A DNA stretch of 36,532 nucleotides from Planctomycetota bacterium (lineage in GTDB: Bacteria; Planctomycetota; Phycisphaerae; SM23-33): positions 1 to 36,532 of the forward strand of contig JAJRYB010000027.1 of the NCBI GenBank assembly GCA_024275995.1, read 5' to 3'. The stretch's first letter is position 1, and every line of letters begins with the position of its first letter. The notes below the pieces were generated by a model. The model was not told the origin of the DNA. It ran no database searches and was given only the letters and a program-made list of their open reading frames with translations. This document shows, one piece after another, positions 33,318 to 36,290 of the stretch. Position numbers and translations under genes: made by a program.

Positions 33318-34097
33318 TCACGCGTTCGCCACGTCAGGGCCGACTGCGCCGAGGCGAAGACTGCAGTAGTGGCCGGTCCGCAGGGGATGGTCATCGGTCT
33401 GATGAATTTTTCGCCAGAGGCCGGTCATCATGCGTCGAATGCGGTCTGACTGCGAGACGTCGGCTGCAAGGTTGTGCAACTCGTGGGGGTCGTCGTCCAG
33501 ATTGTAGAGATCGTCGAAGTCGAACCCGTTGAATACCAGCTTCCATGGTCCGCTCCAGTATACGCGCTGCGTCACTGCGAAACGCGTGCCCTCGTACTCC
33601 GCATACCCGGTTGTGAAGTCGCCGGCTGCGCCGTTCGGATCGCGCAAGACCTTCGCGAATGATCGTGAATCCGGCGCGTCGATTGGCTCGGCGCCGGTCA
33701 GTTCCAGGATGGTCGGGCAAAGATCGTGCAGGCCGACGCGGGCGTCCGTGCTTACGCCAGAGGCCACGCTACCGCCGCGCACGATCATCGGGATGTTGTA
33801 TATCTCCTCGAATGCGCCGAAGTTGTGGGCGTCCATACCGTGGCCACCCATGTACCTGCCGTGGTCGGACGTGGCGATCACAATCGTGTCATCCAGTTGC
33901 CCGGTATCTTCGAGTTGCTCCAGGAGCAGGCCCAACTGCGCGTCTATCGCCGCCGCCCCGGCCCCACCGGCGGATTGGCCCAAGATTGCCTCCTCCGGGT
34001 GGCCCTCGATCACGTTGCCGGACATCTTCAGGCCGCTGACGCCCTGTTCCAGCCAGATCGCGTGCAACTGCGTCCGCGCGTCGTCTCCTGGCGTCAA
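33318..34097 (-). pseudogene. Sulfatase, C-terminal fragment lacking the formylglycine site
   Basis: About 259 residues of a sulfatase of the alkaline-phosphatase superfamily. They include the metal-binding TIVIATSDHGRYMGGHG, the NIPMIVRGGSV strand, LHDLCPTILELTG, and the C-terminal LYNLDDDPHELHNLA motif. The N-terminal 200 or so residues are missing. These would carry the C/S-x-P-S-R sequence that is converted to formylglycine and is required for activity. The frame stays open upstream to about 34226, but that part reads as unrelated repeat-like sequence (NQTLRGFDAKRSAGARE), so the break lies near 34090. An intact homologue would remove sulfate esters from glycans, fitting the neighbouring operon. 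Confidence 0.8.
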
Positions 34098-34233
34098 TCC
34101 GGCTTCGCTTTCAGCTACGCCGTGACAAAGCGGGCGAGGAGATTCCGCTTCGCGGGCGCCCGCGCTGCGCTTGGCGTCGAACCCCCGGAGCGTCTGGTTT
34201 CGCCATCCGGGGGAGTTCGATAACTCTTACCAA

Positions 34234-34275
34234 TGTCACAGAAGGCCAGGATTTAAACCCTGCCCCTCTGTGACA
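34234..34275. repeat. 42-base near-perfect palindrome
   Basis: The left half starts TGTCACAGAAGG and the right half ends CCCCTCTGTGACA; 18 of 21 base pairs match, with centre TTTAAA. The core CAGGATTTAAACCCTG resembles a degenerate tRNA T-arm. It abuts the 3' end of the tRNA-Gly half. Confidence 0.7.
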
Positions 34276-34316
34276 GCGGGCGAGCGGATTCGAACCGCCG
34301 ACGTCCAGCTTGGGAA
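34275..34316 (-). other. 3' half of tRNA-Gly(CCC): candidate attachment site
   Basis: On the minus strand the sequence runs from the anticodon loop TTCCCAA through GCTGG, a T-arm GGCGG-TTCGAAT-CCGCT, acceptor strand CGCCCGC and discriminator T. This matches tRNA-Gly(CCC) closely. The 5' half is absent: the expected GCGGGCG acceptor strand and D-arm are not found in the next 70 bases. A tRNA 3' half is what remains at one end when a tyrosine integrase inserts an element in a tRNA gene. Confidence 0.75.
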
Positions 34317-34490
34317 GCGAACTCGTCTTGTGTTTATTCTTTTCACGACAAACACTTACGGCATCAACCTGCACTGGGTGACCAACTTGGTGCAGGCCGG
34401 TCATCACGTCGCCCGTGTCGCGCTCTGACATAGGCTTACGGCCGATTCCTGCGGGAAGACGCGCTATGCAAGATTGCCTTTGAAAAACCT

Positions 34491-34536
34491 TTGACTAATA
34501 AACCTTGCGGCCGTATCTTTTATTAGTGACGGCCGC
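34491..34536 (+). promoter_or_regulatory. Fic promoter inside two interleaved inverted repeats
   Basis: TTGACT (34491-34496), 17 bases and TATCTT (34514-34519) form a promoter. It is overlaid by ACTAATAAA (34494-34502) / TTTATTAGT (34519-34527) and by GCGGCCGT (34507-34514) / ACGGCCGC (34529-34536), both perfect, in the order A-B-A'-B'. A protein bound here would block transcription. Confidence 0.7.
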
Positions 34537-34568
34537 TATTAAAGCGGGCTTTCACAGAGGCGAACACT

Positions 34569-35732
34569 ATGAAAGCGACGGGCACCTACATCACGACCTC
34601 GACAGCAGGCGAATCCTTCAAGGCCTTCGTGCCGAATCCTTTGCCGCCAGACCCTCCGATCGCGCTGGCGAGCAAGGACCATGATCTGATCGAGAAGGCC
34701 AATCGAGCTCTCGGCCGGCTCGACGGCGTCACGACGCTGCTGCCGGACGTCTCGTTGTTCCTGTACTTCTACGTTCGCAAGGAGGCCGTGCTGTCCTCGC
34801 AGATCGAGGGCACGCAGTCGTCGTTCTCCGACCTGCTGCTGCACGAGGAGGCCCTCGCCCCCGGCGTGCCGCTGGACGACGTGCAGGAGGTTAGCAACTA
34901 CGTCGCCGCCATGAACCACGGGCTCACTCGGCTTCGGAAGGATGACTTCCCCTTGTCGCTCCGCCTGATTCGCGAGATGCACAAGGTGCTGCTGTCGAAG
35001 GGACGCGGCAGCGACAAGACGCCTGGCGAGTTCCGGCGCAGTCAGAACTGGCTGGGCGGCACCCGGCCGGGTAACGCCAGGTTCGTCCCGCCGCCGCCGG
35101 ACCGCGTGGCCGAGTGCATGAGCAACCTGGAGAAGTTCCTGCACGACCAGCCCAACCGAACGCCAGTGCTGATCAAGGCGGCTCTGGCACACGTGCAGTT
35201 CGAGACGATCCACCCGTTCCTCGACGGTAACGGCCGACTGGGGCGGTTGCTGATCGCGCTGATCCTCTGTGCCGAGGGGGCTCTGGCCCAGCCGCTGCTG
35301 TACCTAAGCCTATTCTTCAAGCAGCATCGCCAGGAGTACTACGACCGCCTCGACGCCGTGCGGCTCAAGGGCGACTGGCTCGGCTGGCTGCAGTTCTTCC
35401 TGGAGGGCGTGGAGCAGACCGCCCAGCAGGCCGCCGACACGGCCGGGCGCATCTTGAAGCTGTTCGATGAGGACCGCCGCAAGATCGAAGACCTGGGCCG
35501 CAAAGCCGGTTCAGTACACCGCGTGCATGACCTGCTCCGGCGGCACCCGATCACGACGATCTCGAACGCAACGAAGCAGCTCAGCATGACTACGCCCACG
35601 GTTGGCAGCGCCATCGAGTCCCTGGAGACCCTCGGCATCGTCCGCGAAATCACAGGCAAGCAACGCGACCGCATCTACGTCTACGACCCGTACGTGAAGA
35701 TTCTCGACGAGGGCACCCAGCCGCTTCCATAG
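34569..35732 (+). CDS. Fic family protein, class II, with C-terminal winged helix
   Basis: A 387-residue protein. The Fic core HPFLDGNGRLGR is at 215-226, whose H215 is the catalytic histidine for transferring AMP (or removing it) on target hydroxyl groups. The inhibitory helix motif S-x-x-x-E-G is in the same chain at S76-E80-G81 (LSSQIEGTQ), which defines class II enzymes that hold themselves inactive. The Fic N-terminal region is intact (LHEEALAPGVPLDDVQEVSN). The last 70 residues (HDLLRRHPITTISNATKQLS and SAIESLETLGIVREITG) form a winged helix, so the protein may bind DNA, probably its own operator. GAGG lies eight bases before the ATG. Similar proteins travel on mobile islands. Confidence 0.93.
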   Translation: MKATGTYITTSTAGESFKAFVPNPLPPDPPIALASKDHDLIEKANRALGRLDGVTTLLPDVSLFLYFYVRKEAVLSSQIEGTQSSFSDLLLHEEALAPGVPLDDVQEVSNYVAAMNHGLTRLRKDDFPLSLRLIREMHKVLLSKGRGSDKTPGEFRRSQNWLGGTRPGNARFVPPPPDRVAECMSNLEKFLHDQPNRTPVLIKAALAHVQFETIHPFLDGNGRLGRLLIALILCAEGALAQPLLYLSLFFKQHRQEYYDRLDAVRLKGDWLGWLQFFLEGVEQTAQQAADTAGRILKLFDEDRRKIEDLGRKAGSVHRVHDLLRRHPITTISNATKQLSMTTPTVGSAIESLETLGIVREITGKQRDRIYVYDPYVKILDEGTQPLP

Positions 35733-35779: not shown

Positions 35780-35796
35780 ATTGCCTGTCAGGCAAT
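35780..35796. repeat. 17-base perfect palindrome downstream of fic
   Basis: ATTGCCTG-T-CAGGCAAT, 47 bases after the fic stop. There is no T-tract, so it is not a clear terminator. It may belong to the adjacent element end. Confidence 0.45.
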
Positions 35797-36290
35797 TCCC
35801 CGCAAACGGAGTCACCGACGCCGTGAGCGGTGTTTCCGGCGTGTACACACAATCGCCATTCTTGGCCGATGTGCGAAGACAATCGCCACCTTCGAGACTT
35901 CTCTGCCGACAATGGCCAGATGTGCGATATGTTCCCCTGGCCGAGGCCCGGGAAGGCCTGATCGCCGACGATGCGATTGCGCGGGCGATTCTCTGGGGCG
36001 ACCTGCTCGAAAGCCACGCGCGGCGCATCTACTCGGCGGGTATCGATCCGGGTGTCGTCCATGCCCGGGCGCTGGCCAGGCGGATCGTCGCCGACGAGGT
36101 TCCCGACGGCTTCACCGAGCGGGACATCTACCGCAATCACTGGTCGATGCTCAGCGATAAGCACCAGGTGCAACTGGCCGTCGCCGAGCTGGTCGAACTG
36201 GACTGGCTGCGGATCGAGACGCAGCCGACGCAGGGCCGGCCGAAGGTGGTCCACCGCATCAACCCGGCGGCCAGGGCCATGCGCATGTGA
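35781..36290 (+). pseudogene. DUF3987-like mobile-element protein, C-terminal remnant
   Basis: The 169-residue frame has a believable family match only from about residue 55 onward: AIARAILWGDLLESHARRIY, then ALARRIVADEVPDGFTERDI, then a winged-helix-like end AVAELVELDWLRIETQPTQG. This is the tail of DUF3987/YfjI-type primase-associated proteins that sit beside integrases on planctomycete and phage-like islands; intact members have 500 or more residues. The ATPase/primase part is missing. The first 50 codons overlap repeat DNA that may be an IS end. The apparent start (TTG at 35781) has no ribosome site. It is probably not functional. Confidence 0.5.
35839..35936. mobile_element. Possible insertion-sequence end (IS21-like repeats)
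   Basis: On the plus strand ACAATCGCCA occurs twice (near 35849 and 35880), and ATGTGCG occurs twice after a GGCC(G/A) word. GTGTACAC is at 35841-35848. Multiple terminal repeats of this type are usual at IS21-family ends. No transposase gene is present, so this would be a remnant. The assignment is tentative. Confidence 0.3.

Follow-up and report, generated by a model that had tools for sequence, protein, structure and literature searches.

A putative four-site operator before a SoFic-type fic gene and its covariation with residue 346 of the Fic recognition helix

Fic proteins that carry a DNA-reading domain

CccR of Yersinia pseudotuberculosis is a class II Fic protein with a C-terminal HTH that represses its own promoter, where its dimer protects AGATAATCAT-N26-ATGATAATCT near its own -35/-10 boxes (PMC9755527). 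This protein, which is also a secreted effector, is the one precedent for Fic autorepression that was found in the openly licensed literature. CbFic2 of Coxiella burnetii is likewise a class II Fic with a wHTH and binds DNA; it was tested with random DNA only, and its DNA binding is tied to deAMPylation, not to autorepression (PMC10628234). The authors of that study stated in 2023 that DNA binding had not been shown for SoFic (PMC10628234). For the E. coli Sofic a downstream antitoxin, AS1, has been reported, and the part of that source considered here makes no mention of an operator (PMC12249575). A further parallel is offered by Phd-Doc and other autorepressing toxin-antitoxin operons, which are repressed by their own product through tandem operators, the arrangement that is proposed here for fic.

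The DNA analysed here (the window) comprises 36,532 nt of a Planctomycetota bacterium (GCA_024275995.1, contig JAJRYB010000027.1, positions 1-36,532, forward strand). As with CccR, the Fic protein encoded there is of class II and has a C-terminal winged helix, and the -35/-10 boxes of its gene carry an inverted repeat (Table 1). Pfam recognised the Fic_N (2.1e-27) and Fic (1.8e-21) domains. The class II Fic motif HPFx(D/E)GN(G/K)R is present as HPFLDGNGRLGR at residues 215-226, and the class II inhibitory motif (S/T)xxxE(G/N), N-terminal to it, as S76xxxE80G81, both being invariant in A1. The PADLOC SoFic model was matched nearly over its full length (E 2e-126, 420 bits, residues 16-380), and domain order and fold are those of the SoFic family (Shewanella SoFic 3eqx/3zcn). 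The score of 150.9 bits lies far below the cut-off of 550 of the NCBIfam equivalog ProtAdlyltaseSoFic, and the protein is therefore taken as a SoFic-type relative and not as an orthologue proper. Judged by its sequence, it is a class II Fic and a relative of SoFic. The best PDB fold matches of its AlphaFold2 model were 7cb8 and SoFic 3zec/3zcn/3eqx, with MarR-type proteins among the weaker Foldseek matches. The modelled C-terminal winged helix consists of helices 331-338 and 342-354 plus wing strands, and the recognition helix (342-354) has a pLDDT of about 94. Unlike in the Phd-Doc type, the toxin-like enzyme, the inhibitory helix and the DNA reader are united in one polypeptide.

Table 1. 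Features of the fic locus, in coordinates of the window
Feature	Position	Strand	Remarks
-35 box TTGACT	34491-34496	+	Consensus scan; fused to half-site S1; TTGACTA invariant in 11 homologues
Half-site S1 CTAATAAACC (arm A)	34495-34504	+	Template fit; covariation
Arm B GCGGCCGT	34507-34514		Promoter spacer; judged incidental, not conserved
-10 box TATCTT	34514-34519	+	Consensus scan; overlaps half-site S2; TAT invariant in 11 homologues
Half-site S2 CTAATAAAAG (arm A')	34517-34526	-	Template fit, covariation; start 22 bp after S1
Arm B' ACGGCCGC	34529-34536		Judged incidental as partner of B; pair not conserved
Half-site S3 CTATTAAAGC	34536-34545	+	41 bp after S1
Half-site S4 CTGTGAAAGC	34548-34557	-	31 bp after S2; weakest copy; abuts ribosome-binding site
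fic gene, 387 aa	34569-35732	+	Fic_N domain, Fic domain, C-terminal winged helix; SoFic-type
Recognition-helix codons 342-354 (TPTVGSAIESLET)	35592-35630	+	AlphaFold2 helix; column 346 first

Interleaved repeats at the fic promoter

A consensus scan placed a sigma-70-like promoter with a 17-bp spacer before fic. A sequence-only reading of the window had described a perfect 9-bp AT-rich and a perfect 8-bp GC-rich inverted repeat that are interleaved over both promoter boxes, and all four arms were indeed present and perfect. Arm A, ACTAATAAA (34494-34502), pairs with A', TTTATTAGT (34519-34527), and B pairs with B'; together the arms span TTGACT and TATCTT. The same reading held the interleaving to be unusual, and this was borne out. 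Nowhere else in the window do two perfect inverted repeats with arms of at least 9 and at least 8 bp interleave, and neither 30 shufflings of the whole window nor 4000 of the local 200 bp produced such a pair. The A-B-A'-B' arrangement does exist, and chance and composition do not account for it.

At the core of B lies CGGCCG (34508-34513), a self-palindrome placed exactly on the centre of the A-A' palindrome (34510.5), and B' is a second CGGCCG located 22 bp downstream of the first. As both are self-palindromic hexamers, the pairing of B with B' is largely expected; the window contains 36 copies of the hexamer. In the RNA fold the 3' part of B' can also pair otherwise, in a CCGCT-AGCGG hairpin around S3. 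Upstream of fic in L082 and L002, both CGGCCG copies differ from those of the window by the same C-to-T change (GTGGCCGT, ATGGCCGC), which preserves their likeness as direct repeats in this one comparison.

About 110 fic loci were collected by protein search and the DNA before each fic gene was inspected. Over 11 homologues the A/A' pairs were kept at 94%, and the central A/A' position showed a compensatory change from G-C to U-A among these 11 relatives. B/B' was complete as Watson-Crick pairs in the window only; in the 96%-identical relative L082 it persists only through two G-T pairs, and elsewhere just 2-5 of its 8 positions pair. The alignment and these pair counts rule out B/B' as a conserved element. 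Thus the upstream alignment that the sequence-only reading had called for returned a divided answer: the upstream sequences of the homologues are related in the A type and unrelated in B/B', and the A-B-A'-B' order does not survive as a unit. In close relatives the order is TTGACTAAGAAAG...TATnCTTTCTTAG...GCTAAGAAAGC...CTTTCTTAAGG, that is half-site, inverted half-site, half-site and inverted half-site. Judged from the aligned sequences, A/A' forms the opening half of a regular array of four sites, and A-B-A'-B' is not one device.

The position of the -10 box sets the expected transcription start at about 34526, so that A, B and almost all of A' lie upstream of it. The proposal that the repeats allow two exclusive RNA folds is for this reason unlikely. 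An RNA switch or pseudoknot was rejected, as there was no Rfam match, the mRNA fold was ordinary and lacked A and B, and B/B' was not conserved. More broadly, A-B-A'-B' could be conceived as a single bistable device with exclusive cruciform or RNA folds, or with dimers that compete on A/A' and B/B'. The statistical rarity of the arrangement and the direct repeat kept in L082 by the same C-to-T change in both copies of B speak for such a device, but none of the more distant homologues has B/B', an mRNA could form neither helix with A, B and most of A' lying upstream of the expected start, and the fold of the DNA strand is only modestly stable (z -2.07), so that we regard it as highly improbable.

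A four-site array that co-varies with the Fic recognition helix

The array of the window consists of four 10-bp half-sites in alternating orientation (-> <- -> <-) with start-to-start steps of 22, 19 and 12 bp, and it reaches from the -35 box as far as the ribosome-binding site. The centres of the half-sites fall near whole helical turns (0, 2.1, 3.9 and 5.05) and hence on one face of the helix, and the spacing of the two inverted pairs differs by 10 bp, i.e., one helical turn. Its four-site score of 42 exceeded all 750 null scores (maximum 36). S3 and above all S4 are degenerate in the window, and the half-sites of L082 are uneven. An unguided repeat finder missed the array of the window, scoring the CGGCCG repeats in its place; only a template learned from relatives brought the array out.

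Among 105 homologues, 70% had an upstream repeat score above the 95% limit of shuffles, as against 12.5% of downstream regions. The commonest same-strand offset was 41 bp, found in 33 of 75 non-redundant homologues (shuffles 0.5), and an offset of 31 bp was found in 20 of the 75 (shuffles 1.3). These two peaks, each with a 1-bp shoulder, dominate the histogram and correspond to four 10-bp sites with the steps seen in the window. The computed four-site grammar recurs ahead of fic in many phyla; about half of the 75 homologues fail a strict four-site template at 99%, and in distant homologues the register of the half-sites is one that we infer. Some relatives carry more than four half-sites. Upstream of fic at L034, six perfect copies of TTATTAAAGG alternate in orientation within about 95 bp. 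Among named plasmid homologues, those of rhizobia have AT-rich arrays together with Asn346, and those of Synechocystis, Thermus and Lachnospira showed no clear array.

CccR has a single pair of sites with 10-bp arms and a 26-bp spacer, whereas the window has four half-sites; unlike that spacer, the gap between A and A' is 16 bp, and the second pair is tighter by one helical turn. Of the secretion that marks CccR, the window's Fic gives no hint so far. By analogy, the array is best read as an operator like that of CccR with an architecture that appears to be new. Neither this layout of four sites nor its occurrence in many phyla nor the recognition code described below was found in the openly licensed literature.

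As the half-sites vary by lineage (CTAAGAAA, CTAATAAA, TTATTAAA, TAACGAAA), it was possible to ask which protein reads the array. Out of 379 alignment columns of Fic, residue 346 shared the most mutual information with half-site positions 4-5, followed by residue 342. With core distance partialled out over 58 non-redundant sequences, 346 was first of 329 columns (r 0.37, z 6.5), and it ranked first for positions 4-5, 4 and 5 alike (z 6.5, 6.1 and 4.8). Arg346 occurred with AG in 12 of 14 sequences (2 of 44 for other residues) and Thr346 with TT in 10 of 11 sequences (11 of 47 for other residues); Fisher p-values for these counts take no account of phylogeny and were set aside. On a tree of the catalytic part, several separate lineages repeat the associations between residue 346 and half-site. 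The window and L083, both with Gly346 and AT, fall within a clade of Arg346 and AG, which indicates that Arg346 to Gly and AG to AT changed on about the same branch. Predictions fixed before a second set of loci was collected were correct in 3/3 non-redundant cases for Arg and 3/3 for Thr, and were not confirmed for Ala346 (0/2) or beyond one of two cases for Gly346. A cruder nearest-pair test agrees in direction: the half-sites differ in 8 of the 11 pairs with unlike residues at 346, as against 5 of the 24 pairs with like residues. In this test 346 ranks only 14th of 387. The centre of the half-site co-varies with residue 346 of Fic's own recognition helix, and Gly346 is the predicted specificity residue of the window's Fic, both by sequence and by model.

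The operator might be real and yet be read by another host regulator, with Fic merely lying downstream, and the sites would suit any dimeric repressor. Against this, the perfect A-N16-A' occurs in the genome at the fic promoter only, and the array covaries with a column of the fic recognition helix better than with any other column. It also follows fic across phyla with no other shared gene: the widest neighbour family was present at 15 of 81 loci, all of one alphaproteobacterial group, and a neighbouring regulator gene shared across phyla was therefore rejected. A pattern search of the genome with up to 3 mismatches returned the fic promoter plus background only (real 2, reversed control 3), and a wider regulon in this genome was rejected. 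In the genomes of two relatives, G017 and G037, the sole site match also lies at fic. As no gene travels with fic and the site is private, an outside regulator or regulon is improbable.

The surroundings of fic were also inspected. L011, L017, L019, L022, L027, L030 and other alphaproteobacterial fic loci have a conserved set of open frames next to fic (up to 15 loci), which points to a common mobile or defence island. In the window, the sulfatase gene at 33318-34097 (-) aligns with no more than the C-terminal third of the Sulfatase profile (211-301 of 301) and seems to be cut near 34100, perhaps by an insertion that brought fic. A segment at about 34275-34335 (-) resembles the 3' half of a tRNA (CTTCCCAAG ... 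GGCGGTTCGAATCCGC), with no tRNA call by ARAGORN, and is possibly the attachment-site remnant of a mobile element. Just after fic lies a 169-aa open frame (35781-36290, +) with no Pfam or NCBIfam match, and in the last part of the contig (about 36310-36376) a tandem GTGCCAAAA GTGCCAAAA faces its inverted copy TTTTGGCAC TTTTGGCAC.

Proposed autorepression by a one-polypeptide, toxin-like enzyme

The covariation of the array with the DNA-reading part of Fic would imply that a SoFic-type Fic switches off its own gene. Based on sequence comparison, we consider it probable (roughly 85%) that 34491-34557 is a promoter-operator at which the Fic dimer binds its own array through the C-terminal winged helix and represses its own transcription. 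One dimer would occupy S1/S2, with S1 on the -35 box and S2 on and just past the -10 box, and a second would occupy S3/S4, between the expected start and the ribosome-binding site. Since both promoter boxes and the start region lie within the reach of the four sites, bound Fic would block RNA polymerase, and with centres near whole turns there could be room for the two dimers next to each other on one helical face. Such autorepression may keep a potentially toxic AMP-transferase low and would let its level rise when free dimer falls. Binding, repression, the arrangement of the dimers and this physiological benefit are what we infer from the array.

Autoregulation through the winged helix, as suggested in the sequence-only reading, thus gains support at the level of sequence from the conserved A-type half-sites, their covariation with the Fic recognition helix and the precedent of CccR. 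Its idea of two bound dimers survives in spirit, with the second site placed at S3/S4 (34536-34557) and not at B/B'. Instead of simple repression, the half-sites might serve autoactivation or a 'parked' DNA-bound state that holds Fic as a deAMPylating dimer. DNA binding shifts CbFic2 to such a dimer (PMC10628234) and four sites could hold two dimers; this is nevertheless unlikely, as S1 and S2 lie over the two promoter boxes, which is the placement of a repressor, and CccR represses.

Extending autorepression to the whole family, SoFic-type Fic proteins across many phyla may be one-polypeptide toxin/autorepressors with private four-site operators and a code of Arg346 for AG and Thr346 for TT, in which occupancy of the array would also set the AMPylating or deAMPylating state and loss of operator binding, e.g., after a phage has attacked host DNA or transcription, would release both expression and activity. 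This wider proposal is speculative and, in our estimate, rather doubtful as a whole. SoFic-type proteins have been characterised as anti-phage systems that consist of one protein. Should they prove to be autorepressors with a readable DNA code, experiments could directly address how a widespread abortive-infection enzyme is controlled, the operator of any sequenced homologue could be predicted from its recognition helix, and there would be a concrete reason why SoFic-type enzymes carry a winged helix.
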